Virus record (IMG/VR): IMGVR_UViG_3300025853_000289
Coordinates: 1-35,770 of that record
Direction: 5' to 3' (one strand)
Origin: a virus
DNA: 35,770 bases
Below the pieces are notes generated by a model. The model worked only from the letters and a program-made list of their open reading frames with translations. It was not told the origin of the DNA and did no database searches. Within the stretch, counting starts at the first letter, position 1. Each line of letters opens with the position of its first letter. Positions 2,745 to 35,770 of this stretch are shown here, piece after piece. A program made the position numbers and the translations under genes.

Positions 2745-3425
2745 ATGCAAACACAACAACTAAATAAAGTTATAAAAGATAAATCAATTCCTACGCCTAT
2801 GGATCATAGGTATAGGAAATGGTTGTTTATGTTGCCTTATGATGATCCATTTGTAATGTCTGTTTCTGGAGAAGCATTTGCTGGAAAATCCTCGTTTTTA
2901 TTGAGGTTTATGTCAAGACTTTGTGGCAAAAATTCCAGAAATAAGCAAGGAGATAGATGTTTATATCTGAATATTGAAGAGCCACTCCGACGTGGCAAGA
3001 CTATTCAACAAAAATGTCGTACAATGAGATTATCTCCAGTTAGTTTGCAGTATATTGATATTATTGATGATGTTGGTGCTGATTTTTATTCTGAATTAAC
3101 TAAAATTTTGGAACAAGGCAATTATAAATATGTTGTAATTGATTCAGTTTCAATGATAGCTGGTGCTTCCACAAATAAACATAAAGAAATGTGGGATTAC
3201 ATTCAATCACGTCCAGAGAGCTTTATTGTGGTTTTACACTATACCAAGTCTAAAAAAGGGAAAATGCAAGGTCCGACAATGTGGGAGCATAATCCAGATA
3301 TTGTTGTTTGGTTAGCAAATGATGGTACTCGATCGGTAGCTTCATTCAAAAAAAATAGATATTTGGGAGATAAGCCCAGATTAGCTTTTGATACTTATAA
3401 GGAGGAGGTTGTAAGTGTATTTTGA
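2745..3425 (+). CDS. RadA/Sms-like RecA-fold ATPase (short form)
   Basis: 226 residues. Walker A is GEAFAGKS (42-49) and Walker B is VVIDS (130-134). The region after it follows the RadA/Sms pattern: HYTK (165-168), GP (176-177), EH (181-182), D185 and KNR (203-205), comparable to the H-T-K...GP..LEH..D...KNR signature of RadA. LYLNIEEPLRR (73-83) corresponds to the LYVSGEES segment of RadA. It lacks the N-terminal zinc finger and the C-terminal Lon-like domain, so only the ATPase core is present. In the family the activity is ATP-driven branch migration/DNA unwinding in recombination. A role in phage replication or recombination is likely. It is first in a four-gene operon and overlaps the next gene by 11 bases. 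A packaging role cannot be excluded, but the motifs are not of the FtsK/HerA type. Confidence 0.75.
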   Translation: MQTQQLNKVIKDKSIPTPMDHRYRKWLFMLPYDDPFVMSVSGEAFAGKSSFLLRFMSRLCGKNSRNKQGDRCLYLNIEEPLRRGKTIQQKCRTMRLSPVSLQYIDIIDDVGADFYSELTKILEQGNYKYVVIDSVSMIAGASTNKHKEMWDYIQSRPESFIVVLHYTKSKKGKMQGPTMWEHNPDIVVWLANDGTRSVASFKKNRYLGDKPRLAFDTYKEEVVSVF

Positions 3426-14089: not shown

Positions 14090-14296
14090 ATGACTGAATT
14101 AACAAAAAATCAAAAAATTGCTTATTCAACAGTTGCTACTGGAATTGGTGGTGTTGCTTCTCATTATGGAATTAAGAATTGGAAAAAAAATGGTTGGTGG
14201 AAGACGTTGGCAGTTTTAGGAATTATGCAAACAACTGGAGGGCTTTATACATTTGCAACGACTGTAACTGCTCCGAATAATCAACTTGCTAAATAA
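14090..14296 (+). CDS. Small two-span membrane protein
   Basis: 68 residues with two hydrophobic segments (about 13-28, VATGIGGVASHYGI, and 38-58, TLAVLGIMQTTGGLYTF) separated by a Lys/Trp-rich loop (KNWKKNGWWK). No motif known. Its stop overlaps the next start. It is one of several small membrane proteins in the late block. Confidence 0.6.
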   Translation: MTELTKNQKIAYSTVATGIGGVASHYGIKNWKKNGWWKTLAVLGIMQTTGGLYTFATTVTAPNNQLAK

Positions 14297-15129
14297 TGAA
14301 GTCAAAATCAAGAAATATAACTGCTAAAAATCACGATGGATTGATTGATCAAATAATTAGAGAAATATATTCTATTGATCAAGTGGCTACAAACAATCCA
14401 ATAGTAAAAAAAAAAGCTAACGAGTTGAGAGGCAGTTCAAGATCTGATACAATTAAAAAGTGCTTTGATTATGTTTGGAAGTCTGTAAGTTTTTGTGATG
14501 ATCCTAAAGGAATGGAGCATATTACGTCGCCTTGGCTCTTAATATCAGGGCAGAAAACTTGTGAAGATTGTGAAAGTATGGTTTTACTTATTTCTTCATT
14601 ATTAAGAATTAATGGAATTACGACAAGATATAAAGTGATTTCTTGGAAAGATCCAAAAGATTTGAGATTTACTCATATTGTTTTGGAAGCAAAAGATGGA
14701 AGTAGATGGATTGTTTTAGATCCGACAATGAAAAGTGCTGGTTTTAATCACACAGTAAAAGCAAATAGAACAAAATTATATAGGTCGCCAATGCCAGAAT
14801 TAGAATTAAAAACTTTGTCAGATAAACCTTGTGCTTGTAAAGGGTCTTGTAATAGATGCTCTGGATTAAGGAAAGGTATGCCTGAAATTAATATAAATAT
14901 TGGAAATCAACACTCAAATAGTCAGTCTGGAAGTAATAATATTGATGTAACTCAAAGATTATTGCACCAATTAGGTGTAAAAAATCCAAATGAAAATGTT
15001 GTTGTTGATGAAGTTCTTGAAAAAGATAAAATCACTTTGCCAGATGCAGTAAATGGACGAGGTCATAAGCAATTATATTCAACAATTACTGCTGGAGAAA
15101 AAATTTACAAGTACCCTGAAAGGTATTAA
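14296..15129 (+). CDS. Transglutaminase-like cysteine protein
   Basis: 277 residues. The core reads TCEDCESMVLLISSLLRINGI (88-108), THIVLEAKDGSRW (126-138) and VLDPT (140-144). It provides the Cys (Cys92 by spacing to the Arg, or Cys89), His127 and Asp142 of the transglutaminase/protease fold. A second Cys cluster (CACKGSCNRCSG, about 179-190) resembles a small metal-binding knuckle, and a Gln/Asn/Ser linker leads to the C-terminus. Possible roles are cross-linking of virion proteins or proteolytic processing. As the only clear non-cell-wall cysteine enzyme in the late block, it is a candidate to act at the recurring GLS motifs, but that is speculation. Confidence 0.7.
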   Translation: MKSKSRNITAKNHDGLIDQIIREIYSIDQVATNNPIVKKKANELRGSSRSDTIKKCFDYVWKSVSFCDDPKGMEHITSPWLLISGQKTCEDCESMVLLISSLLRINGITTRYKVISWKDPKDLRFTHIVLEAKDGSRWIVLDPTMKSAGFNHTVKANRTKLYRSPMPELELKTLSDKPCACKGSCNRCSGLRKGMPEININIGNQHSNSQSGSNNIDVTQRLLHQLGVKNPNENVVVDEVLEKDKITLPDAVNGRGHKQLYSTITAGEKIYKYPERY

Positions 15130-19866: not shown

Positions 19867-20451
19867 ATGTTAAAAGCATTGACAAACGGACTATCTGAAA
19901 TATTCAAAGGTCCAACATTAAAAACAGTTGCTCAATCTATTGGGGCAGTTCTGGTAAGTAAAAACTTGGCTGGAATTACTCAATATGGATTAAGCAAAGC
20001 TGGTCAAAATGTAGATTTATCTGGTCCTATTCCTGCCCTTTCATCTGCAATTTTAGTTTCGGCAGTTTGCTATGGGAAAGGTTGGAAAACTGCTGGGACA
20101 ACTACATTAGCATTTGCTGGTGGAGAGCAAATTTTACACTACTGGAATAAAACTTTGGCAAGTTCATTGAATCAGCCATTAGTTCTTCCTGCAATCGCTG
20201 GATCATCTTCTTTGGCAGATGGAATTTATAGTGCTACTCCGACTATGTCTGATGGTCAAGAAGTGGTACAAGTTCCAAACGAGCAAGGTATTATGATCCC
20301 AACAACTGTACAAAGTGATAATTCGGCTGGAATGAGTGATTATGCAAGTAATCTTTCAAAATTTAGACAAAATAGTCAATTTAAAACAACTCCAACTATG
20401 TCTGATGGAATGGAATGGATGGATACAGATGTTTATTCAAGATTTAATTAA
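19867..20451 (+). CDS. Late membrane protein with repeated PTMSDG motif
   Basis: 194 residues. It starts MLKALTNGLSEIF. Several Gly/Ala-rich hydrophobic segments cover about 15-105 (SIGAVLVSKNLAGI, ALSSAILVSAVCYG, TTTLAFAGGEQIL). The polar tail contains TPTMSDGQEVV, AGMSDYAS and TPTMSDGMEWMD, that is, three copies of a [TG]-M-S-D element. It is located directly before the capsid candidate. Probably an inner virion membrane protein with processing or binding sites in its tail. Confidence 0.6.
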   Translation: MLKALTNGLSEIFKGPTLKTVAQSIGAVLVSKNLAGITQYGLSKAGQNVDLSGPIPALSSAILVSAVCYGKGWKTAGTTTLAFAGGEQILHYWNKTLASSLNQPLVLPAIAGSSSLADGIYSATPTMSDGQEVVQVPNEQGIMIPTTVQSDNSAGMSDYASNLSKFRQNSQFKTTPTMSDGMEWMDTDVYSRFN

Positions 20452-20479: not shown

Positions 20480-21130
20480 ATGTCAATAGATCAACAAAGA
20501 CTTCAACTTCAAGCAGTTGGAGCGCCAAAAATGGACGACAACTATGTCGTAGTACCGAAGACGGTAAGAGATACAATTTTTGTGGATGGTGGAGCTTCTT
20601 TTGAGCCAAGCAATCAATTATTTACTTCTGCAAGTAAAAATGATGCTTATAAAACACCCGGATTTCCGTCAAACTCACAAGCGTTTAGTATTCAAGGAAT
20701 TAACATTAAACCTTATGTGTTATTCTCGACTACTGATTCAACTGATGAAGCATCTGCAAGACAAACTTATGCTTCTTTCTTGGAAAATGCTTATGTAAGA
20801 TTACAAGTTGAAGGATCTGAAATCTTAAATGAGCCACTTTCAAATTTAGTACCTTTTTATTCTGTGGTAGAAGCATCTGCAACAGACGAAGCAGCAGCTT
20901 GGACTAAAGTGGAAAGAAGAAACGCTGATCAAGGTTATAAATTACCAGAGCCAATTGTTTTAGGTGCTGGAACTACATTCCAATTCCAATTCAATGTTAA
21001 TGGTACATTTACAACAGAAGCAGTTGGAACTACTAACTTTATGACTTGGCCAAATTCTGGTCTATCGTCTTCAAAAGGTTATGGAGTTATCTTTGATTTG
21101 AAAACACTTCAAATTAGAGAAAGAAGATAA
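20480..21130 (+). CDS. Capsid-like protein (major capsid candidate)
   Basis: 216 residues, no membrane segment, predominantly beta by pattern (AFSIQGINIKPYVLFSTTD, AYVRLQVEGSEI, TTFQFQFNVNGTF, YGVIFDLKTLQIRERR). Pro/Gly loops lie between the strands. This size and strand density suit a single jelly-roll capsid protein of a tailless virus. The gene stands alone between a ribosome-binding site (AAGGAT) and a large terminator at 21138-21190, consistent with strong expression as its own unit. The motif SGLSSSKGYG lies near the end. I cannot name a homologous family, and it could be an abundant decoration protein instead. Confidence 0.5.
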   Translation: MSIDQQRLQLQAVGAPKMDDNYVVVPKTVRDTIFVDGGASFEPSNQLFTSASKNDAYKTPGFPSNSQAFSIQGINIKPYVLFSTTDSTDEASARQTYASFLENAYVRLQVEGSEILNEPLSNLVPFYSVVEASATDEAAAWTKVERRNADQGYKLPEPIVLGAGTTFQFQFNVNGTFTTEAVGTTNFMTWPNSGLSSSKGYGVIFDLKTLQIRERR

Positions 21131-21658: not shown

Positions 21659-22774
21659 ATGAAATTAGAAAATATAAATGATATTATTAAAAACCTTAAT
21701 AATATGCAAATGTACCACTACAATAAGACTGGTACAATCTCATCTGGAAATACTACTACTTCCTTAACTTTCAAAACAGACAATATGGACCTATGGTGCA
21801 TAATGCCTTATGTTGCCCTAACAAATGCAAATGGTCAAGCAATCGACGAATCTGAAATTGATAGAAATTTAATCAAAATGAATATTAAAGTATTAAATGG
21901 AAATAATCTTTTCGGAGATTATAATTTCACTTTAGAAAGTTTCAATGAAATGTATTTGTCAGAGCAATTTCAGGGCTTTTTAGTTGAGGGAAATTCCACT
22001 TATGAAATTACCTTTACTGGATTGAATATTCCAGCTTCAACAAATGTAGATATGCCTTATTCAGTTTCTTTTAACTTTGTTGGCTATCAATTAGGATTTC
22101 CAGCAAACGCAGGTTGGAACGCACAAAGACAAAAATTAGATTTTAGATATGGTCAAATAAGACAATATTCTATTTCTGCAAAGTCTGGCAATTCAACTGC
22201 TGATCAAAACACAATTAGAACTACTTTGCAAGGTCAAATAATTGACACAATGAGAGTTGATGTTATTGATGCAAATGGTAAAGTAATCACAGAAAAAGAT
22301 ATACAAGATGAATTTGTAATTAATTTTAAATACAATCAAAATCAAATTATGTTTAATAATATGCCTTTGCGAGTATTCAATAAAATTACAAGATCCAAAA
22401 GATTTAGAAGACTTTATTTAGATGCCAATACTGATTATACAATTGATGTACTGGGAACTTCAAACACAAATTATTCTGCTCAAAGATTAGCTTTTGACGC
22501 TATGACTGCCGATTTTGTAGTTGGCGACACAATTACTGGTGGAACTTCATCGGCAACTGGTGTAATAGTTGAAAAAGTAGGTACTGGTGCAACTGGATAT
22601 TTTATTTTAAAGTCAGTAACTGGAACTTTTCAAGACAATGAAACAATTACTGGAGCAATTCAAGGATCTGCAACTGCTGATGGTATTTTATCAACTTCCT
22701 TGAATGTTTATCCATTGACATTTAACTTCAAATTTGATGGTTATCAAATGGGAGTAGCTCCAAATGTTCGATAA
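21659..22774 (+). CDS. Beta-rich protein of two tandem related domains (double-barrel capsid/vertex candidate)
   Basis: 371 residues. Two halves carry the same ordered motifs. First: F95-N96, S101, F104, NSTYEIT (112-118), F138-N-F-V-G-Y-Q-L-G146. Second: F240-N241, S246, F249, NTDYTID (257-263), F357-K-F-D-G-Y-Q-M-G365. The second half has an extra segment at about 275-345 with VGDTITGGTSSATG and QDNETITGAIQG, a type of beta repeat found in phage structural proteins. Two stacked beta barrels in one chain is the plan of double jelly-roll capsid proteins, though sequence alone does not prove that fold. It overlaps the next gene by 11 bases, so the two are made together and may assemble together. 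Confidence 0.55.
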   Translation: MKLENINDIIKNLNNMQMYHYNKTGTISSGNTTTSLTFKTDNMDLWCIMPYVALTNANGQAIDESEIDRNLIKMNIKVLNGNNLFGDYNFTLESFNEMYLSEQFQGFLVEGNSTYEITFTGLNIPASTNVDMPYSVSFNFVGYQLGFPANAGWNAQRQKLDFRYGQIRQYSISAKSGNSTADQNTIRTTLQGQIIDTMRVDVIDANGKVITEKDIQDEFVINFKYNQNQIMFNNMPLRVFNKITRSKRFRRLYLDANTDYTIDVLGTSNTNYSAQRLAFDAMTADFVVGDTITGGTSSATGVIVEKVGTGATGYFILKSVTGTFQDNETITGAIQGSATADGILSTSLNVYPLTFNFKFDGYQMGVAPNVR

Positions 22775-23405
22775 TAATACGCCAATTTATTTAAGTGGAA
22801 TGCGTGAAAAGTACCCAAATACTTTTTATGCCACTTATTTAACATCAAAATCTGGAGTAACAATTACAGATGCTGATAATGGCTTAATTGCTTACTTACA
22901 AGCTATGGCAGATGCCACAACAAGCCCAGAAGTAAGAAGTTTAACTCCTTTTTCAGATCTAACTCCATTGAAATCTAAAAACTGCTTATTTGTGCATCAA
23001 GTTAGCTTTTTTGCTTTTGATCCAACGATTGCTGGTTTATCTGCAACTGCTGATGTAATTATAGGATCTCAATTAATTGATGGAACGACTGTAACAAGGT
23101 CATATCCACAATCAAATTACTTGAATGGTGCTATGCCAGTGGTTTTCCAGCCAAATTTTTTCCGTCCTGCGATTACAATTGATGGAGAATTAATCAATCA
23201 AGGGTTTATCAATGGTCCTGCTGGATCTGAAAGCAATAAAGGTTTTAAATCACTTGGTATTCCAATGAATACTTGCATAAATGTAGGAAAAGAAGTAGAA
23301 AGAGTAAGCAATATTGAAATTTCAACTGCATTTGCTCAATACGTTTCAGAAGAAAGTACATATCAAAATTATCCAGTTCAAGCAATAGTTGAATTTTGGG
23401 TTTAA
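22764..23405 (+). CDS. Late structural protein, capsid-associated
   Basis: 213 residues, beta-rich with Pro-rich loops (NCLFVHQVSFFAFDPTIAGLS, then ATADVIIGSQLIDG, then PVVFQPNFFRPAITIDG) and an aromatic end (VQAIVEFWV). There is no membrane segment. The overlap with the two-domain capsid candidate suggests a partner protein such as a penton or second capsid protein. It carries AGLSATAD. Family not recognised. Confidence 0.5.
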   Translation: MFDNNTPIYLSGMREKYPNTFYATYLTSKSGVTITDADNGLIAYLQAMADATTSPEVRSLTPFSDLTPLKSKNCLFVHQVSFFAFDPTIAGLSATADVIIGSQLIDGTTVTRSYPQSNYLNGAMPVVFQPNFFRPAITIDGELINQGFINGPAGSESNKGFKSLGIPMNTCINVGKEVERVSNIEISTAFAQYVSEESTYQNYPVQAIVEFWV

Positions 23406-24791: not shown

Positions 24792-24810
24792 ATAAGAATG
24801 GATTTTTAAA

Positions 24811-25335
24811 ATGAACTCAAAAACATTATTAGGACTTGGTGCTATCGGTGGAGCAGTTTATCTTGCCACCAGCAAAAAAGCTCAATCAAAAGTAAAAAAA
24901 ACTACTGGATTGAGTGATAGCACTAAAGATCCAGCTAAAATAAAGAAATTAAGAGAAATTGTAAAAGAGCATCAATATAAAAGAATAAGTGGAAAAATCG
25001 TAGATGTGCAAACTGCAAATATGATTTTACAAGTTTATGACAATCTTCCAGCTGATAAGAAGAAAGACTATGCGAAAAAATCAATTCCAGAAATGGCACG
25101 AACTGGATGGAGTATTTTAAGCAAATCTCAATCTGGATTGAGTGGTGGAGAATATAAAAAATATGGAGATGGCAAATGGGAATATTTAGTCAAAGCATAT
25201 AGTAAAGGAAAAGTATGGTATTATCATTTAACACCAACAAAAAAATATGCAGAGGAAATAAAAAAAGACTTTCTCTCACGATCTGAAATTGACAAAGTAA
25301 CAATAAAAAAACAAAAGTGGAATACTGGGGTATAA
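24811..25335 (+). CDS. Leader-tagged late protein, cargo variant 2
   Basis: 174 residues. Residues 1-36 are the leader (MNSKTLLG, GAIGGAVYLAT, SKKAQSKVKKTTGLSD). Its codons differ silently from the other copies, so the amino-acid sequence is what is conserved. The cargo starts with a helical domain (about 42-95) with LREIVKEHQYKRISGKIVDV, then TANMILQVYDNLPADKK and IPEMARTGW. This resembles a small domain seen in virion proteins of marine phages and large viruses (VD..TA..I..VYD.L). A second part follows SGLSGGEYKKYG with WEYLVKAYSKGKVWYYHL. Two GLS motifs therefore separate the leader, the first domain and the second domain. Function unknown. Confidence 0.7.
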   Translation: MNSKTLLGLGAIGGAVYLATSKKAQSKVKKTTGLSDSTKDPAKIKKLREIVKEHQYKRISGKIVDVQTANMILQVYDNLPADKKKDYAKKSIPEMARTGWSILSKSQSGLSGGEYKKYGDGKWEYLVKAYSKGKVWYYHLTPTKKYAEEIKKDFLSRSEIDKVTIKKQKWNTGV

Positions 25336-25660: not shown

Positions 25661-26250
25661 TTTTACTTATTTACATATTGACTTTATTTTCTTTCTCTCA
25701 AGAGAAATTTATGGTAATGACAAGTTCGGAGCAACTCCTCTCTGCTTCTGAACGTTATTGTCTTTCGGTAATCGGCACTATCGAAGCCACTGGCAATAAC
25801 GATGGTGTCATTATCGAAAATATTATTAAAACTGGAGGAGGTTTAAAGGGCTATCCATATTGTTATTACTATCAATATTGGGCTTATGAGATGGCTACTC
25901 AAGAAATCAATAAAACTGCTTGTACAAAAGTAAAAAATCCAATGGTTAAGTCTGGATCAAGTCAAGCAATGTTTAATTATGCTAAAAAATTGAATAAGAA
26001 AGTTCCATACGAAGTTAAAAAACACGATTTAATTGTTTGGAAATCTGCAAAAAGCTGGTCAGGTCATATTGAAAGAGTGAAAGAAGTTTTAGGTGGTGGT
26101 TATGTGATGACTTATGCTGGAAACACAAACAATGGATTGAGTGGATCGCAAAGAGAGGGCAATGGAATTTTTATAAGAAAGAGGAATATTAATCATCCAC
26201 TTTCAAGAATATTAAAAATAAGAGGTTTAGTCGGTTATGAATGGTTGTAG
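25657..26250 (+). CDS. Secreted CHAP-type endolysin
   Basis: 197 residues. The N-terminal hydrophobic segment (ILLIYILTLFSFS) looks like a signal peptide or signal anchor. Catalytic-type residues follow the CHAP order: Cys69 in GYPYCYYYQYW, His137 in SGHIERV and Asn156 in TYAGNT. It should cut the peptide part of peptidoglycan in the periplasm. Next to a multi-span membrane protein, so these two may form the lysis pair. The motif NGLSGSQREG (159-168) lies in the catalytic domain, so not all GLS occurrences need be processing sites. Confidence 0.7.
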   Translation: MILLIYILTLFSFSQEKFMVMTSSEQLLSASERYCLSVIGTIEATGNNDGVIIENIIKTGGGLKGYPYCYYYQYWAYEMATQEINKTACTKVKNPMVKSGSSQAMFNYAKKLNKKVPYEVKKHDLIVWKSAKSWSGHIERVKEVLGGGYVMTYAGNTNNGLSGSQREGNGIFIRKRNINHPLSRILKIRGLVGYEWL

Positions 26251-27298
26251 TATAATTAATGTCTTTACCCAAAATGGATTGACAAATTCAGGTGGTGGTG
26301 GAGGTGTTTCAGATGGAAAAGTTAAAGTTGATGTCCTTGCAACTGCTGATTATCTTGGTGCAACTGGCTCGACTGGAGCTTTGAGAGTAGATTCCACTTT
26401 CGACTATGTTGATGGTGGAAATTTCGTTACTTTGGGCTTGGCTGATAATTCTGTAACTACTGCAAAACTTGTTGATTTGAATGTAACTACTGGAAAATTA
26501 GCTGATACTTCAGTAACAACTGCTAAAATATTAAATAGTAATGTAACACTTGGTAAAATCGAAGATATTGCTACAAACCATTTTTTAGGAAGGCACGCAG
26601 GTGGGTCTGGTGCAGTTCAACAAGTTTCAGCAAGTCAAGCAAGGACTATTTTAAATGTAGAAGATGGAGCTGATGTAACAGATAATGCAAATGTAATAAC
26701 TGCTTTAAATAATATTGCTGGAGTTTCAGAGGGTGATGTATTATATTTTAATGGAACTGATTGGGTAAGATTAGCACGTGGAACTGATGGACAAGTTTTA
26801 ACAGCAACTGCAACTACAGTTAATTGGGAAAATGCATCAAGTGGGTTTGCAGATCCAATGACTACGGAGGGAGATATTATTTATCGTTCTGCAGGTGGTA
26901 CAACACGTTTAGCAGTTGGAACAAATGGACAAGTATTAAAGAGCAACGGAACAACAATTAGTTGGCAAAATGAAAGCAGTGGTGGTGCTACGTGGACGAC
27001 TGCAACAGCTTCAACTTCTTTAGCTAATAGTATTGATTTATCTGTTAATTATTATGTAGAAGTTGCAGGCGATGCTGATTTTAATTTAACAGCAGTAGAT
27101 CCAACAGATTTACAAACAGGAATTAGACATTTATTAGTATTTATTCCAAGTGGTGCAACAAGAACAGTAACAAACGGATTAACTTCAATGGATAACTTTG
27201 GAGGTGCAATTCCAGTTACTACATCTGAACGTTTAGTATTGGAAATATTTAAAGATGATACAGGTAATATTAATATAGCTGGAAGTGTAGTGTCGTGA
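26237..27298 (+). CDS. Fibre/receptor-binding protein with phage fibre repeats
   Basis: 353 residues. Residues 60-130 are rows of TTAKLVDLN/TTGKLADT/TTAKILNSN, a short beta-helical fibre repeat. Then GDVLYFNGTDWVRLA..GTDGQVLTAT and EGDIIYRSAGGTTRLAVGTNGQVLK are the widespread phage fibre modules. The C-terminal part (about 260-353) is a globular beta domain. There is no collar or tail gene nearby, so it is probably mounted on a capsid vertex. It overlaps the endolysin gene by 14 bases. Confidence 0.75.
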   Translation: MNGCSIINVFTQNGLTNSGGGGGVSDGKVKVDVLATADYLGATGSTGALRVDSTFDYVDGGNFVTLGLADNSVTTAKLVDLNVTTGKLADTSVTTAKILNSNVTLGKIEDIATNHFLGRHAGGSGAVQQVSASQARTILNVEDGADVTDNANVITALNNIAGVSEGDVLYFNGTDWVRLARGTDGQVLTATATTVNWENASSGFADPMTTEGDIIYRSAGGTTRLAVGTNGQVLKSNGTTISWQNESSGGATWTTATASTSLANSIDLSVNYYVEVAGDADFNLTAVDPTDLQTGIRHLLVFIPSGATRTVTNGLTSMDNFGGAIPVTTSERLVLEIFKDDTGNINIAGSVVS

Positions 27299-28803
27299 TA
27301 GGTCGTAGTTATATAAAAAGAAAAAAAATATATTTTAAATTAGACAATAGTTCGTCAGATAGTTCTATTAATAATATTGCGGTTACTGCCAATTCATTAA
27401 CTTACGGTGTAAATGAATTTAATCAAAGTAACAGTGCAGGCTCTTTTAATGGCACTTCGACTAGAATTAATTTTAATAACACAACCGACGATTTTTTTAA
27501 AACTAACTTTTCTTTTATATATTGGATAAAACCAACATCGTCTTCCACTTTTTACAGACCATTTAATTCAGACAGCGGAGGGGCATCAAACACGGCTCCT
27601 TGGTTTCGAACGTCCTTAGCATCATCGCAATATTATTTTGGTATTGGTTCTAATGATTTTAATATCGGTATTACTGGTGGGACAGTTGATACAAATTGGA
27701 ACTCGTTCGGAGGTATATGTTCAGGTAATGGAACGACCTCAAATATAGAAGCGTTTGTAAACGGCTCTTCAATAGGAACAGCAAGCGGAACTCATAGAAA
27801 TATAAATAGTAATAAATATGTAAGTATTGGGGTTTTAAGATACCAACCAAGTACGTATTTAAACTATTATTCAGGATTAATGGATAATATAATTGCTTAC
27901 GATATAGCAATTCCAAAGGGAGCTTTAAAAATATTAAATAATGAAAAAGGAAGAATAGGTTTACCTAAAAAACTATTATTAGATAATTATTCAGGTAGTG
28001 CAGTTGCTTATTCATTAAGAAAGTTAAGATATAATTATTCAGGTTCAACAATAAGAGTAAGACGTGCAAGTGATAATGCAGAGCAAGATATTGGATTTGT
28101 TAGTAATGAATTAGATACGACTTCATTAGCAAGTTTTTGCAGTGGAACAAATGGTTTTGTAACGACTTGGTACGACCAAAGTGGAAACAATAGAAATGCT
28201 ACTCAATCCACTACTGCAAATCAACCTAAAATTTATGATAGTTCGACAGGTGTTTTATTAGAAAACGGAAAGCCGACTTTACAATTCGACGGCTCTAATG
28301 ATAGTTTAGGGTTAGGGACTGCAATAACAAAGCCAGCTAGATATTCTATTTTTCAAACATTAAAAGCATCAGCTACAGGAGTTACATATAATGTTTCAGG
28401 TTCTGTAGCAAGTAGTGGTGCGGCTTTAACAGGGTGGGGTGGTTTTAGATTTAATACATCTAATAAAAACAGCACATATTGGGGAGATGGTAGTTCTTAT
28501 AGGATATACGAAACGAGTTCGACTTCGCAAGATACTAACCAAAATATATATAATATTTTATATGATAGTGGGTTAAATATTTACATTTATAAAAACAATA
28601 GTTCATTAACTCTTAATCTAGTTGGTGGTTCAGCTACGACTTCTGCAGGGACTACGTATGGATATAGCATAGGTTTAATCGGAGAATTAACCAGCGGGTA
28701 TTTTAATGGCAATATTCAAGAACATATTATTTATACTTCTTACGAGGGTGCTAATGTGAACGGAATAAATACTAATATAAATTCATATTACGGAGTTTAT
28801 TAA
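27295..28803 (+). CDS. LamG-like/arabinofuranosidase-like adhesin
   Basis: 502 residues, GTG start overlapping the previous stop (GTGA). The N-terminal part (about 15-215) is a concanavalin A/LamG-like sandwich (GSFNGTSTRINFNN, FSFIYWIKP, NSFGGICSGNG, YYSGLMDNIIAYD). The second part (about 235-350) has AYSLRKLRYNYSGSTIRVRR, then DIGFV.NELD and TTWYDQSGNNRNATQ. This is a domain common in Flavobacteriia phages and related to the alpha-L-arabinofuranosidase B catalytic fold, and it ends in another sandwich (LQFDGSNDSLGLG). Probably binds or trims host surface glycans. Part of a fibre cassette that may be exchanged between phages. Confidence 0.7.
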   Translation: MIGRSYIKRKKIYFKLDNSSSDSSINNIAVTANSLTYGVNEFNQSNSAGSFNGTSTRINFNNTTDDFFKTNFSFIYWIKPTSSSTFYRPFNSDSGGASNTAPWFRTSLASSQYYFGIGSNDFNIGITGGTVDTNWNSFGGICSGNGTTSNIEAFVNGSSIGTASGTHRNINSNKYVSIGVLRYQPSTYLNYYSGLMDNIIAYDIAIPKGALKILNNEKGRIGLPKKLLLDNYSGSAVAYSLRKLRYNYSGSTIRVRRASDNAEQDIGFVSNELDTTSLASFCSGTNGFVTTWYDQSGNNRNATQSTTANQPKIYDSSTGVLLENGKPTLQFDGSNDSLGLGTAITKPARYSIFQTLKASATGVTYNVSGSVASSGAALTGWGGFRFNTSNKNSTYWGDGSSYRIYETSSTSQDTNQNIYNILYDSGLNIYIYKNNSSLTLNLVGGSATTSAGTTYGYSIGLIGELTSGYFNGNIQEHIIYTSYEGANVNGINTNINSYYGVY

Positions 28804-29024
28804 TGTTGGGATATACATATCAAACTGAACAAGAGGCAATTAATGCAAGGCAACAATGTGCCGATTATAAAGGTTTGCCAGTGCCGAATGGAACTTCTAT
28901 TTATTGGGTTAATTATAGCTTTAGTCAAATAGATAACTTCTATTACATTATTTATGATGAGGGTGTAGAAGTAGTATTAGGTGAGCCGATTACATTTGAA
29001 ATAATTACAGAGGAAATATTATGA
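28803..29024 (+). CDS. Small fibre-cassette protein
   Basis: 73 residues, aromatic-rich (GTSIYWVNYSFSQIDNFYYII). Helical N-terminus and beta C-terminus. It overlaps both neighbours by 1-4 bases. Probably a fibre accessory protein by position; family unknown. Confidence 0.55.
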   Translation: MLGYTYQTEQEAINARQQCADYKGLPVPNGTSIYWVNYSFSQIDNFYYIIYDEGVEVVLGEPITFEIITEEIL

Positions 29025-29596
29025 TTTTTGATAATATATTAAATATTTACACAACAACACCAATAAATCAAATACCAGAAAATGAAAGAGGTGTTAGGTA
29101 TATCGAATTGACTGCTGAACAAGTTGAAAGGTATAATAATTGGGTTTCTAATATCGGTGGGTCTGTTCCTAATAATTGGATATTAACAGGTGAAGGCATA
29201 GACTATAATTCTGTATTAACAGAAAAGCAATTAAAAGAGGCAAAAAACTCTAAATTATCCGAGTTACAAGCTAATTATCAAAGTAAATTAGATGAAGGCT
29301 ATACTTATAATTTATTTACTTTTAATTTAGATGAAAACACAAAAGGTAATATAGGCGATTGGATTAGTTTAAACACTATTTCAGGTGGTGCAATAACAGA
29401 TTATTATATAACAGATAGTTCTAATAATCAAAGGCAATTTACAGCTCAACAATTTGCAGAGTTTGGAGTAGGTTTTGGAACTGTTTATGCTACTTTGAAA
29501 AGTGCTTTTTCTAACAAAAGAAATGCAATAAATAATTCAACAACAATAGAAGAACTAAATTCTATAAATATTGCTGATTTTAATGTTGAGGAATGA
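29021..29596 (+). CDS. Fibre-associated protein, DUF4376-like
   Basis: 191 residues. Residues 70-190 (LKEAKNSKLSELQANYQSKL, then YNLFTFNLDENTKGNIGDWI, then RNAINNSTTIEELNSI) follow the pattern of DUF4376-type proteins of tail-fibre operons: a helix ending in K..EL, a beta hairpin, and a C-terminal helix pair. Such proteins are usually chaperones or fibre caps. It ends the fibre cassette. Confidence 0.6.
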   Translation: MIFDNILNIYTTTPINQIPENERGVRYIELTAEQVERYNNWVSNIGGSVPNNWILTGEGIDYNSVLTEKQLKEAKNSKLSELQANYQSKLDEGYTYNLFTFNLDENTKGNIGDWISLNTISGGAITDYYITDSSNNQRQFTAQQFAEFGVGFGTVYATLKSAFSNKRNAINNSTTIEELNSINIADFNVEE

Positions 29597-29603
29597 TAAC
29601 TAT

Positions 29604-29873
29604 ATGGCTGATCAAACAAGTTTATTAAAAGATGCTTTTTTTTGGGCAATTGGAATATTACAAGTCATAATTCTTGGAATTGGAACTTGGTTAATTCAAG
29701 GAAAAACAAAAGCCGAAACAGATATAAATGCAATGAAAACTGATATTGCACTTATAAAACAAGATATAATCTCAAAAAAAGATGAGTTAAAAAAAGTAGA
29801 TGATAAACTTGACAAAATAGAGCAATTATTAATTAAAATTCAATTGAAATTAGGTGTAAATAACGACGAATGA
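29604..29873 (+). CDS. Single-span coiled-coil membrane protein
   Basis: 89 residues from ATG 29604; the ATG at 29571 overlaps the preceding gene. A span at about 10-28 (FFWAIGILQVIILGIGTWLI) is followed by a Lys/Asp coiled coil (TDINAMKTDIALIKQDI, KKVDDKLDKIEQLLIKI). This resembles phage holin-like or hemolysin XhlA-type proteins. Its stop overlaps the lytic transglycosylase start (ATGA), which supports a lysis or entry role. Confidence 0.6.
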   Translation: MADQTSLLKDAFFWAIGILQVIILGIGTWLIQGKTKAETDINAMKTDIALIKQDIISKKDELKKVDDKLDKIEQLLIKIQLKLGVNNDE

Positions 29874-30376
29874 CAGAGAAACAAGTACATAGTTTAGCCC
29901 TCCAAACTGCAAATTGGATGAAGCAAAATAAATATAATTGGGTTGATCCTTATAAAATTGCTGATATTGTTACTGCTATTTGCTTTGTGGAATCAACTTA
30001 CAATCCAAAGGCAAAAAATACTCGTAGTTCGGCAAAGGGTCTTATGCAAATGACTGATCCAGCTAAAAAAGATGCTGAAAGGTGGCTCAGACTTCCAACT
30101 GCCTCGACTAATGAAATGTACAATCCAGTTTATAACTTAAAATTGGGTACTATGTATTTTTTGCATCAATACAAAAGATATAACTTTGATTTGAAAAAGT
30201 CAGTAATTGCATATAATCAAGGACATTACAATCCAAATGCTGATGGATTGGATTACTGGGCAAAATTTCAGAAAGCATACAGACAAAGATCTCCACAAGT
30301 GGCAAGTTTCAATCCACTTCTGGCGATTTTACTCGTTGGTGGTGCAATTGGAACTTGGTGGTATTATAGAAAGTAA
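29870..30376 (+). CDS. SLT-type lytic transglycosylase with C-terminal membrane span
   Basis: 168 residues. ICFVESTYNP carries the catalytic Glu41, then GLMQM (57-61) and AYNQG (about 114-118), the three marker motifs of the SLT/goose-type lysozyme fold. The C-terminus is a membrane span (LLAILLVGGAIGTWW) followed by YYRK. It cleaves glycan strands of peptidoglycan. A membrane-anchored muralytic enzyme in the virion block resembles P7 of PRD1-like viruses in concept (known for that group; homology here not shown). Confidence 0.85.
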   Translation: MTEKQVHSLALQTANWMKQNKYNWVDPYKIADIVTAICFVESTYNPKAKNTRSSAKGLMQMTDPAKKDAERWLRLPTASTNEMYNPVYNLKLGTMYFLHQYKRYNFDLKKSVIAYNQGHYNPNADGLDYWAKFQKAYRQRSPQVASFNPLLAILLVGGAIGTWWYYRK

Positions 30377-30898: not shown

Positions 30899-33541
30899 AT
30901 GGTGGATTTTTTAGAAGAATTAGTAAATGATTACAACAAAAAACTTCATAAACTTTCGGAAAATGAAGCTAAAGAAATAAAAAATGAGATTTTATCCATT
31001 GCCAAAGACTTGGAAGTGGATATTTCTCGTTTATTTGCTGATTTTGACAAAAAATCTGCCACTCCTCAAAAAAACGACGCACAGAAAAGTCCTACAAAAA
31101 GAGTTTCGAGGGTAAAACGTCCTGCAAGTCTAAAAAAAGAAAAGACTGCTCCAGAGCCAAAAAAAGTCGAAAAAAAAGCAAGTGGGGGAAAAGAAAGATC
31201 TACAAATATAAAACCTATTAGAAAGTTAGGCACTGGGAGTAATGTTTATTTTGAAAGTAAAAAATATAGAGTGAATGAGGACACTTATGGGAATGGTCAA
31301 TATGTTTTGAATATTACAGAATATAATCAAACTATTCCAAGCCATAACATTAAATTTAAAAACTTGAAAGATGCTATTAAAGTGGCTAAAGAATTGGAGT
31401 ATGAATATCCTTTTGGGGTACGTTCAAATTTTAATTACGAAGATTTTTATAATACATATATTCTTAAAATTCGTAAGCCATCACCAGAGCCAAAGAAAGT
31501 GGAGAAAAAAGCAAGTGAAGAAAAAGAAAGAAAAATTGATGTTAGTGGGATAATTACATTTTCTGAATATGAAAAAGCATCCAAAGGTTATGGATCGGAC
31601 AAACTACCAAAAGAATTTAAAATTTTAGAATATTCTGTGACGATGGCAAATAGATTGTGCCAAGATAATAAGAATGTTCTGTCTTGTAATTTAGCATTTG
31701 GAGGTTTGAATAATCCAAATGGACCATTTAGAGAGGGAATTACTTATGCCTATTCAAAAAAGAATAGAAATTTAAGTTTATTTAAAACTTTAAAATCTGG
31801 TGCATTGAAAATATTAAATATTGTCAAAGATGGTGGATTGCCAGTTGATAATTTTATTGAAATGGTGCAAAGTGCTGAATACCAAGAGCCAAAAAAAGTA
31901 GTAAAAAAATCTGCTCCGAAAGGGAAAGTAATTGTTGGAAATAGTGGTATTCTGGAAACTCCATCACAAGAAATTCCAAGTAAATATGTAATTATGGAAC
32001 TTGATGATGTGATCCAATCACACGACGAAAGGACTTTTGACTGGAATCCTAAATATCCAAAACAATGTCAAGAAAGAGATTACAAAAAATCGGCTGAAAA
32101 AGATAAGGTATTAAGTTATTCATCTAATTTCAAGCCATATCATTTTATAAATGATAGTCCAGAAGCAATGACTGGTCCGTCCGTTGTTTCAAAAGATAAT
32201 GTTGTTTTAGGTGGTAATGGTCGTATAATGATGTTAAAAAGAGTTAAGCTCTTGAACAATTATGACAAATATATTGACTATTTAAAGCCACGACTCCAGA
32301 TGTTTGGATTTTCAGATAATACCGAATTTAAAAAAATGAAATATCCAGTTTTAGTGAGAATGATTAATGCTGAAATGGATAGATGCAGTTGGTATTCCAG
32401 AATTTTAAATGAAACTTTATCCAGAGCCAAAGATCAAAATACAAATAGTTTAAGTTTAGCAAAATCATTAAGCCAAAAAGGATTTGAGGAAATTGCTCAA
32501 ATATTTGAGGGCGAGGATGATGAAACTTTCAATCAAGTTGTTTCAAAAGACAAAAATCAAAAAGTTGTGATTGATGTCTTGCGAAAAAATGAAATTATTA
32601 CAAGTTCAAATAGTCCAATTTGGCTGACAAATGACGGAAATCTTACTCCTGCTGGAAAAAATAATTTAGAAAATTTATTACTTGCAAAAATTCTTCCATC
32701 CGAAGAATTGATCGAGGGTGCTAAAGATTATACAAATAGAATTTTAAAAGCTATTCCAGTGCTGACTAAAATCCAAACTTTGTCAAAAGAATTTGATTTG
32801 TTACCATATTTGAGAGATGTTATCAAGTTTGAAAATATTAGAAGAACGCAAGGGGTATCAATTAAAGAGTTCCTTAATCAAGAAAGTATGTTCGGAAATG
32901 CTGAAATGCCTGATAATTTGGTGGCTATGCTTTGGTTGTCATTAAAAAGTGGTGTAAATAAATTTAGAGATATTTTAGAAAGTTATTATGTATCTGCCAG
33001 AAATAGCACTCAAGGGGATTCGATGTTTGGCTATGATCAAGAAGTTACTCCAGAAAGTATTTTAAGCACTTTGGTTGCAAATAGAGGTTTATCTGATAGA
33101 ATAAAATTAAGCACTCGTGTTGTTGATAGTGATGTGATTAAGAAAGGGAATGAAATACACGGATTTACTGGAAAAGATTGTAAATATTATTATGTAGCTG
33201 GATCAAAATTCAACAATGGATCAACTTCATTTTTAAAAACTGCTATGAATAGATTGTTGGCTTATAACAGAAAACACTCTGATCCTCAAGCTAAAATCTA
33301 TAAATTTACAAATAAAAGTAAAGCAAATGCAAAAATGAGAGAACTACTGAAAATGAGTGGTTACTTCTCAAATAAAAGCAAAAATGTACAACTTACACTT
33401 GCAAATAAGCCAAAAAGAACTTATAAAAAAACAAGTGGATTGAGCAATAAAGTTGTTAATCATCTGAAAAGTGCTAAACAAGTGGCGACAAGTAAGAAAT
33501 TAACTTTTTCTCAAAAATTAAGAAAATTACTGGAGTATTAA
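30899..33541 (+). CDS. Large polyvalent-type protein with DdrB/ParB-like domain
   Basis: 880 residues, the largest product here. About 60-115, 190-210 and 335-350 are Lys/Pro linkers with repeated PEPKKVEKKAS. Two small beta domains lie between them. About 360-500 contains TGPSVVSKDNVVLGGNGR (about 425-442) and YPVLVRMI (about 481), the ParB-superfamily DdrB-type pattern with G-N-G-R. The rest is mostly helical, ending in a basic region with TSGLSNKV; another motif, NRGLSDRI, lies in the middle. DdrB-like domains are common in polyvalent proteins packaged with phage and ICE DNA, acting on host or own DNA. A DNA-processing function is likely but the catalytic residues are not certain. Confidence 0.65.
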   Translation: MVDFLEELVNDYNKKLHKLSENEAKEIKNEILSIAKDLEVDISRLFADFDKKSATPQKNDAQKSPTKRVSRVKRPASLKKEKTAPEPKKVEKKASGGKERSTNIKPIRKLGTGSNVYFESKKYRVNEDTYGNGQYVLNITEYNQTIPSHNIKFKNLKDAIKVAKELEYEYPFGVRSNFNYEDFYNTYILKIRKPSPEPKKVEKKASEEKERKIDVSGIITFSEYEKASKGYGSDKLPKEFKILEYSVTMANRLCQDNKNVLSCNLAFGGLNNPNGPFREGITYAYSKKNRNLSLFKTLKSGALKILNIVKDGGLPVDNFIEMVQSAEYQEPKKVVKKSAPKGKVIVGNSGILETPSQEIPSKYVIMELDDVIQSHDERTFDWNPKYPKQCQERDYKKSAEKDKVLSYSSNFKPYHFINDSPEAMTGPSVVSKDNVVLGGNGRIMMLKRVKLLNNYDKYIDYLKPRLQMFGFSDNTEFKKMKYPVLVRMINAEMDRCSWYSRILNETLSRAKDQNTNSLSLAKSLSQKGFEEIAQIFEGEDDETFNQVVSKDKNQKVVIDVLRKNEIITSSNSPIWLTNDGNLTPAGKNNLENLLLAKILPSEELIEGAKDYTNRILKAIPVLTKIQTLSKEFDLLPYLRDVIKFENIRRTQGVSIKEFLNQESMFGNAEMPDNLVAMLWLSLKSGVNKFRDILESYYVSARNSTQGDSMFGYDQEVTPESILSTLVANRGLSDRIKLSTRVVDSDVIKKGNEIHGFTGKDCKYYYVAGSKFNNGSTSFLKTAMNRLLAYNRKHSDPQAKIYKFTNKSKANAKMRELLKMSGYFSNKSKNVQLTLANKPKRTYKKTSGLSNKVVNHLKSAKQVATSKKLTFSQKLRKLLEY

Positions 33542-33545
33542 GAAA

Positions 33546-34457
33546 ATGGATGCAAAAACATTATTAGGAATTGGTGCTATCGGTGGAGCAATCTATCTGG
33601 CTACAAGTAAAAAATCAACAACAAAAAAAACAACAAGAAAAAGTACAAAAATCTCAAGAAAAAAACAATGCAGTATTGCTGGATCAAAATTGAGGATTGA
33701 ACAGACTTCGAGTGCTGGAAAAAAATTAAATAATTGCAAAACTGGTGGCTTGAGTAATGGATTAAGTGGAGTTTATGACAAAGGTATTTTTAAATGTGTT
33801 TTTATGGCTGGTGGAACTGGTAGTGGAAAAAGTTATACTGCAAAAGAATTATTAGGAGTTAGATCAAATTCATTTGTTCATAGTGGATTGAAAATAGTCA
33901 ATTCTGATTTAGCTTTTGAAAGAGGATTAGTTGAAGCCAATATCAATGCAAAAGAATTGGCAAAAATTGAAAAAGAAGATCCTATTTTGTGGGCTAAAAT
34001 TGGAGCTGGAGAGGACTCAATACGTGGTAGAGCTAAAAAGATAACTAATAAGCAACAAAGTTCTTATGAAGCTGGTAGATTAGGGCTGATTGTGGATGGT
34101 ACTGGAGATGATTACGATAAAATGTTAAAGAAAAAAATGTTAGCTGAAAAATTAGGTTACGATTGTGCAATGATTTTTGTTAATACTTCATTAGAAGTTT
34201 CTTTAAAAAGGAATAGAAATAGATCCAGAAGTTTGCCAGATTCATTAGTTAAGGAAAAATGGTATTCTGCACAAAAAAATATTACTAAATATAAAAAATT
34301 ATTTGGTGCTAATTTTTATCTTGTGGATCGTAGCTCTGATAGTCCTGCTGATCCAAGAATACAAAAAGCAATTGATAGGTTTATCCAAAAACCTGTTCAA
34401 AATCCAATTGGAAAAAGATGGATTGCTAACGAATTGAAAAAGAAAAAAAGAGGTTAA
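33546..34457 (+). CDS. Leader-tagged P-loop kinase (zeta-toxin/AAA_33-like)
   Basis: 303 residues. Leader at 1-23 (MDAKTLLG, GAIGGAIYLAT, SKK), then a basic segment, the Cys motif QCSIAGSKL...SAGKKLNNC (41-64) and TGGLSNGLSG (67-75). From about 80 comes a P-loop kinase: Walker A GGTGSGKS (89-96), IVNSD at about 118, a helical region and RNRNRSRSLP (about 220-230), the Arg-rich loop typical of zeta/polynucleotide-kinase-like enzymes. In that family the substrate is a nucleotide sugar or nucleic acid. Here the enzyme may travel in the virion and act on entry. The leader plus two GLS motifs suggest release of the kinase by cleavage. No epsilon antitoxin is next to it. Confidence 0.7.
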   Translation: MDAKTLLGIGAIGGAIYLATSKKSTTKKTTRKSTKISRKKQCSIAGSKLRIEQTSSAGKKLNNCKTGGLSNGLSGVYDKGIFKCVFMAGGTGSGKSYTAKELLGVRSNSFVHSGLKIVNSDLAFERGLVEANINAKELAKIEKEDPILWAKIGAGEDSIRGRAKKITNKQQSSYEAGRLGLIVDGTGDDYDKMLKKKMLAEKLGYDCAMIFVNTSLEVSLKRNRNRSRSLPDSLVKEKWYSAQKNITKYKKLFGANFYLVDRSSDSPADPRIQKAIDRFIQKPVQNPIGKRWIANELKKKKRG

Positions 34458-35049: not shown

Positions 35050-35164
35050 GGTAAGAAAATGGATGCAAAAACATTATTAGGGCTTGGTGCGATTGGAGGA
35101 GCAATCTATCTCGCAACAAGCAAAAAAGCTCAAGCAAAAGTGAAAAAAACTACTGGATTGAGTA
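34739..35164. repeat. Right copy of end repeat, block A (matches 1-426)
   Basis: Matches 1-426 base for base with about 17 differences and no gaps. The match starts at the window's first base and stops just after the GLS codons of the leader. Confidence 0.85.
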
Positions 35165-35415
35165 ATAAGCCAAAGAGAAAAAGAAAAGTTGGACTTAATG
35201 AGGAAGCTCTGATTTTCAAAAAGACAAAAGACTCTGATTTAAGAATTGGGAAAGAAGTGTTATATCCATCTGTTCACGGAAATATTGATGTTGGTCTTGA
35301 CACAAATTACAAGAAAGGGAAAATTAAGAAAATTACTAAAGATTATGGAATTAAAGAATATCACGTTGGAAGTGGTCTTTATTTAGCAAAAGATTTAGTT
35401 TTAATTAGGAAATAA
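35059..35415 (+). CDS. Leader-tagged late protein, cargo variant 3
   Basis: 118 residues. Leader MDAKTLLG, GAIGGAIYLAT, SKKAQAKVKKTTGLSN, then about 80 residues of beta-rich, basic cargo (DSDLRIGKEVLYPSVHGNIDVG; GKIKKITKDYGIKEYHVGSG), perhaps a small SH3-like barrel by pattern. It sits in the same place as the 193-residue variant at 321 but the cargo has no resemblance. The stop overlaps the next start by one base (TAATG). Confidence 0.75.
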   Translation: MDAKTLLGLGAIGGAIYLATSKKAQAKVKKTTGLSNKPKRKRKVGLNEEALIFKKTKDSDLRIGKEVLYPSVHGNIDVGLDTNYKKGKIKKITKDYGIKEYHVGSGLYLAKDLVLIRK

Positions 35416-35770
35416 TGAACTTCAACATACTCATAGGATTTTTAACATTGATCATTATAGTATTTTTGATGTCGGCTTATGGTGGCTATCAATATGCTAA
35501 ATTGACTACTGGTGTGGAATATATTGAAGATATAGACACTTTAATATTGCCAATAATAGTTCCAAATGACACTATCCACGAGTACCACTCAACTACCAAA
35601 ATTGTTAGTGAAAATTTTGAGGATAGTACTAAAATAAATTTGTTGGTGGATAGTATTTCAGGGCTTTATGCTAAATTAGAGAGCTTGAAAGTCAAGCAAA
35701 TTGCTATTCTTGACACTATTTTTCCAAAGTCAAAAGACACTCTTTATCTGGAATTTAACAAAGTTACTGA
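35415..35770 (+). CDS. Membrane-anchored protein, N-terminal part (truncated by window end)
   Basis: The first 118 residues of the protein complete at 906-1424, nearly identical, with ATG instead of TTG at the start. N-terminal span IGFLTLIIIVFLMSAYGGYQ. Cut by the end of the window. Confidence 0.8.
   Translation, partial: MNFNILIGFLTLIIIVFLMSAYGGYQYAKLTTGVEYIEDIDTLILPIIVPNDTIHEYHSTTKIVSENFEDSTKINLLVDSISGLYAKLESLKVKQIAILDTIFPKSKDTLYLEFNKVT
35415..35770. repeat. Right copy of end repeat, block B (matches 906-1261)
   Basis: 356 bases, about six differences from 906-1261, no gaps, running to the last base. Confidence 0.85.

Follow-up and report, generated by a model that had tools for sequence, protein, structure and literature searches.

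The gene at positions 21659 to 22774 of the window (the whole stretch of DNA analysed, a virus contig of 35,770 bases) encodes a 371-residue protein, and the open reading frame is real as originally called; the antisense strand of the same segment, read in one frame, is interrupted by many stops. The features of the gene, all on the + strand, are as follows.

21659..22774, +, 371-aa protein with two tandem copies of a predicted jelly-roll-type domain (repeat alignment, AlphaFold2 of copy 1)
21698..22108, +, domain 1, residues 14-150, with at least eight strands and a helix between strands F and G (AlphaFold2 prediction)
22070..22095, +, motif FNFVGYQLG of copy 1, predicted strand I (motif search)
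22139..22771, +, domain 2, residues 161-371, a homologue of domain 1 (29% identity) that carries an insert
22451..22696, +, the insert, a GTSSATG module, residues 265-346, in the predicted HI loop of domain 2 (tblastn)
22727..22752, +, motif FKFDGYQMG of copy 2, predicted strand I (motif search)

Residues ~14-150 and ~161-371 share 29% identity when the two copies are aligned, and the half-against-half local alignment scores 74, above the maximum of 63 reached in 1000 shuffles. With the best of five split points taken, comparison of the halves gives a z of 6.2 (p 2e-4) for the whole protein and of 13.4 (p ~2e-8) once the insert is removed, and BLASTP of the halves recovers two segments (E 0.002 and 0.018). 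The window holds two instances of the signature FxFxGYQxG, at 22070 and 22727, and none turned up in 100 shuffles of it; the two copies also have in common the motifs ANG..I.E..I, FN....S..F and N..Y.I. The predicted internal duplication is thereby confirmed at the level of sequence. The half-homology statistics and the duplicated signature therefore also bear out the short alignment first proposed (residues 95-146 with 240-365), but the repeat is larger than that alignment, taking in almost all of the chain.

AlphaFold2 modelling of domain 1, with copy 2 as the sole other row of the alignment, gave a pLDDT of 79.2 and a pTM of 0.74, the five models ranging from pLDDT 51 to 79 with only two of the five above 70. 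Strands in the model lie at residues 18-28, 33-40, 44-55, 72-78, 88-91, 107-109, 113-121 and 134-145, with a helix (92-100) between the fifth and the sixth, an arrangement that fits a beta sandwich with the jelly-roll strand order B to I and an FG helix. The conserved segment for this helix, FN....S..F, is also present in domain 2 in the two-row alignment, and domain 2 probably has the same fold. Structure prediction of both halves had been put forward as a check; copy 1 does come out as jelly-roll-type with an FG helix, whereas the full-length protein modelled without an alignment reached a pLDDT of just 40, and the Foldseek matches of that poor model are meaningless.

Structure matches of domain 1 in the PDB are mostly to jelly rolls, none of them below E 1e-3. 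The highest TM-score shown is 0.51, to chain 6oj0_A of Sulfolobus polyhedral virus 1; other matches are to BcsB domains, nucleoplasmin cores, Ena fibres, PliG and small plant-virus capsids, all of which we take to be sandwiches with the jelly-roll fold, and the list also includes a short STIV chain, an SH1 chain, vertex proteins and unrelated jelly rolls. In the viral library, the top TM-score listed (0.61, rmsd 3.2 Å) belongs to the 256-aa protein I1ZBI0, which carries no name in the structure-match table and for which we found no identity in the papers. Salisaeta icosahedral phage 1 (SSIP-1) is a poorly understood icosahedral phage with an internal membrane, and its virion protein gp47 is likewise 256 aa long; by this equality of length I1ZBI0 is likely to be gp47, which would then probably be the source of the best structural match. 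SSIP-1 gp47 may itself be a two-domain protein, its halves showing a weak internal repeat in the same repeat test (p 0.009), but it differs from the 371-aa protein in having no insert.

That insert, placed between N..Y.I and FxFxGYQxG of copy 2, was correctly predicted, although its size is ~80 residues (265-346) and not about 70. Searched alone by tblastn it matches the neck protein of Rhizobium phage RHph_I3_18 (57% identity, E 9e-18), as well as Microcystis, Methanomicrobiales, Pelagibacter and Vibrio phage proteins, some of them annotated as head-closure proteins. The best reading is that of a mobile module outside the barrel proper, and the strand order predicts that it sits in an outward-facing HI loop. 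The likeness to the tailed-phage neck and head-closure proteins is confined to this GTSSATG module (up to 57% identity over ~80 residues), which here, unlike there, appears to lie inside a jelly-roll domain, and in a virus without detectable tail genes. If its predicted location is right, a surface module would be common to tailed-phage neck proteins and a tailless virus.

No full-length relative of the 371-aa protein was found in viral contigs, which were searched with the whole protein, with the repeat-half alignment and with a sub-segment, nor by tblastn in phages and plasmids, and because of this no deep alignment is possible; four DNA-motif matches in viral contigs were attributed to chance. 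Sequence comparison links the protein to no known capsid protein; there is no match to those of PRD1, PM2, FLiP and STIV, and none to sphaerolipovirus proteins among PDB sequences. Comparisons with SSIP-1 gp45 to gp47 by Smith-Waterman, HMM and hhalign were not significant, and gp47 ranked below chance-level matches.

The ends of the contig overlap (34739-35168 with 1-430 at 96%, and 35410-35770 with 901-1261 at 98%), and between the overlaps lies a variable gene encoding 193 aa at 321-902 and 118 aa at 35059-35415; the two ends thus hold different versions of one gene, so the assembly merges two strain variants. Two other contigs span the end junction, and together with the 96-98% overlap they indicate that the genome maps as a circle of ~34.7 kb, in keeping with the circular genome of about 35-45 kb of an SSIP-1-like phage. 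The genes of most interest for its affiliation, all rightwards, are these.

2745..3425, +, AAA_25/KaiC-like ATPase, homologue of SSIP-1 gp40 (BLASTP 2e-7 over 202 aa; Pfam AAA_25 in both)
14296..15129, +, transglutaminase-fold protein, homologue of SSIP-1 virion protein gp34 (BLASTP 2e-8; both match Pfam Transglut_core)
20480..21130, +, 216-aa protein, candidate single-barrel capsid or penton protein (gene order, at the position of SSIP-1 gp45/gp46)
22764..23405, +, 213-aa protein, a further capsid or penton candidate (position only)
26237..29596, +, fibre-like genes, likely involved in host recognition (matches to DUF4376 and to PHROG families of tail fibres and virion proteins)
29870..30376, +, SLT lytic transglycosylase with a C-terminal membrane anchor (Pfam SLT 5e-18; hydropathy)

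Two SSIP-1 virion proteins thus have homologues in this genome, gp34 (2e-8) and gp40 (2e-7), of which gp40 is a predicted packaging ATPase (PMC4124505). A search for an FtsK/HerA-type ATPase yielded only the AAA_25/KaiC-like gp40 homologue. None of the scanned proteins has a family match to an HK97 capsid, portal, terminase or tail tube, and the genome does not look like that of a tailed phage (Caudoviricetes); traces of that kind are confined to the fibre-like proteins, a single weak match to a tail-assembly chaperone and, in the kinase at 33546, a weak match to a terminase-like P-loop. By hydropathy, many of the small proteins have one terminal membrane anchor, as SSIP-1 proteins do. Within these searches, this genome occurs only in metagenomes, and genome contigs scanned with the transglutaminase and gp45/gp46 alignments yielded no match. 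The best-supported placement is as a relative of SSIP-1, that is, an icosahedral, tailless phage with an internal membrane. The two resemble each other in circular DNA (presumably double-stranded here), the homologous transglutaminase-fold and ATPase virion genes, the small membrane-anchored proteins and a cluster of beta-rich proteins; they differ in that SSIP-1 has an integrase and none was found here, and their capsid candidates have no detectable sequence similarity.

The order of the genes at 19867, 20480, 21659 and 22764 resembles that of SSIP-1 gp44 to gp47, although the sequence alignments are not significant. The 216-aa protein gives a weak colinear hhalign match to a gp45/gp46 profile (P 0.047), and the 213-aa protein has no family match; the capsid candidates as a group show no sequence signal to gp45, gp46 or gp47, and the 371-aa protein has the structural match to the protein of gp47 length. 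SSIP-1 has two paralogous proteins of ~210 aa in this region, gp45 and gp46, whereas the present genome has one 216-aa gene and a separate 213-aa gene. We note that gp45 and gp46 (SSIP-1 coordinates 34635-35959; z 17) represent a tandem gene duplication adjoining gp47.

The 371-aa protein had been proposed to be a double jelly-roll capsid protein, and this is supported in part. In support, one half is predicted to be jelly-roll-type, the other half is its homologue, the insert lies at a predicted HI loop, and the genome resembles that of a tailless icosahedral phage related to SSIP-1; no sequence match to the capsid proteins of PRD1, PM2, FLiP or STIV was found. Double jelly-roll capsid proteins have an FG helix in both domains, which is characteristic of Bamfordvirae, and their BC, DE, FG and HI loops face outward (PMC9719478). 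Like PRD1 P3, PM2 P2, FLiP and STIV B345, the 371-aa protein would have two beta-barrel domains per chain (of 270-400 aa), a predicted F-G helix and an insertion in an outward loop, but it lacks sequence similarity to them and its genome encodes an AAA_25/KaiC-like ATPase (Pfam); we do not claim membership in the double jelly-roll capsid family. Using the same repeat test, no repeat is readable in the PRD1 P3, FLiP or STIV capsid proteins, and that in PM2 P2 is marginal (p 0.02), so the duplication here is unusually well preserved if this is a capsid protein of that kind. The single jelly-roll viruses (Sulfolobus polyhedral virus 1; HCIV-1, HHIV-2 and P23-77) offer a different comparison, with the best PDB TM-score (0.51, to Sulfolobus polyhedral virus 1, which has single jelly rolls in VP4 and VP10; PMC8459092), an internal membrane (predicted here) and an association with SSIP-1 in the literature; the two equal domains in one chain set this protein apart from both single-barrel subunits and stacked VP4-type barrels.

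In the reading that we prefer, and to which we give roughly an even chance, the protein is a building block of the shell of an SSIP-1-like phage that has double-stranded DNA and an internal membrane but no tail, and it would contribute two upright barrels and a surface decoration. Tandem duplication of a single ancestral jelly-roll domain would have given rise to it, both copies being kept in one chain. If PRD1-lineage shells are a guide, the two barrels of each chain would be set vertically in a pseudo-hexagonal capsomer, their BC, DE, FG and HI loops on the outer face, and the ~80-residue HI-loop module of copy 2 could then form a small tower or decoration on the virion surface. The fibre-like genes elsewhere could supply host recognition, leaving the 371-aa protein for the shell. 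The duplication (z 13.4), the domain model (pLDDT 79), the prevalence of jelly rolls among the structure matches, the superposition on I1ZBI0, the predicted FG helix, the two homologues of SSIP-1 virion genes, the many small membrane-anchored proteins and the lack of tail genes favour a shell role. Weighing against it are the lack of sequence homology to capsid proteins, the two in five models above pLDDT 70, the presence of vertex proteins and unrelated jelly rolls among the structural matches, none of which reaches E 1e-3 in the PDB, and a codon bias that is neutral, as the 21659-22774 gene does not stand out in this marker of major capsid genes. SSIP-1 itself is moreover reported to have two major capsid protein types (PMC6356626), is placed with the two-protein, vertical single-barrel viruses (PMC4958249, PMC5332951, PMC6356626), and has its capsid fold (T = 49) marked as uncertain, 'single jelly roll?' (PMC6260650).

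It is because of these descriptions of SSIP-1, with two capsid proteins that are probably single-barrel, that a spike or vertex role stands as an alternative: the 371-aa protein, with its two jelly rolls in tandem, would belong to the vertex, penton or spike, and the shell would be built from single-barrel proteins such as those at 20480-21130 and 22764-23405. The HHIV-2 spike is indeed composed of several jelly rolls end to end (PMC6414509), short STIV and SH1 chains are among the PDB matches, and the insert is shared with neck and head-closure proteins; set against this, the genome has separate fibre-like genes at 26237-29596 and the conserved FG helix is a trait of capsid proteins, and we regard a vertex or spike role as rather unlikely. 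The two capsid protein types of SSIP-1 (PMC6356626) could instead suggest that the protein is the larger member of a pair of major capsid proteins, with stacked barrels like sphaerolipovirus VP4/VP17 and the 20480-21130 product as the small partner, a layout with which the gene pair is compatible; VP4 has one jelly roll atop another and alternates with the single-barrel VP7 (PMC6414509). The halves of the 371-aa protein are nearly equal and have the same helix motif, however, which fits equivalent positions better than a base and a tower, and with no sequence link to sphaerolipovirus proteins among PDB sequences such a partnership appears improbable. Least of all do we favour a minor or non-capsid beta protein, an adhesin or decoration for which an alignment of only two rows had produced a misleading jelly-roll call: such sandwiches are common beyond capsids, as the BcsB, nucleoplasmin and PliG matches illustrate, but the gene sits in a structural gene cluster and the best viral superposition is with a protein of gp47 length, making this very unlikely.

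A more specific form of the shell reading, which we hold to be doubtful, makes the protein the major capsid protein of an SSIP-1-like lineage, a double jelly roll close to its ancestral state whose sequence still reveals the fusion of two identical single barrels. If so, the SSIP-1-like phages would fall between the single-barrel and double-barrel virus groups, and a major capsid protein of this type would bear on the origin of double-barrel capsid proteins from single-barrel ones. SSIP-1 has stood largely alone since 2012, and the present genome provides a probable relative, with a putative capsid-type protein whose domain duplication is clear enough to read from its sequence.

Other parts of the genome contain further features. 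The fibre-like proteins at 26237-29596 have tailed-phage tail fibres as relatives, yet no tail genes are detectable here, and the same region also has an arabinofuranosidase-like match and DUF4376. The 880-aa protein encoded at 30899-33541 combines lysine-rich repeats with a ddrB-like ParB domain. An N-terminal membrane segment, MDAKTLLGLGAIGGA..YLATSKKAQ, recurs in four proteins (318-429, 24808-24919, 33543-33654 and 35056-35167), where it is fused to different domains, including the zeta-toxin/polynucleotide-kinase-like ATPase at 33546. Finally, the tripeptide GLS is present 18 times in the predicted proteins compared with 4.2 expected (maximum of 13 in 500 shuffles), and is found in the + strand structural genes (321-35415), often within TTGLS or SGLS, and is absent from the replication genes on the - strand; it is possibly a processing or sorting site.
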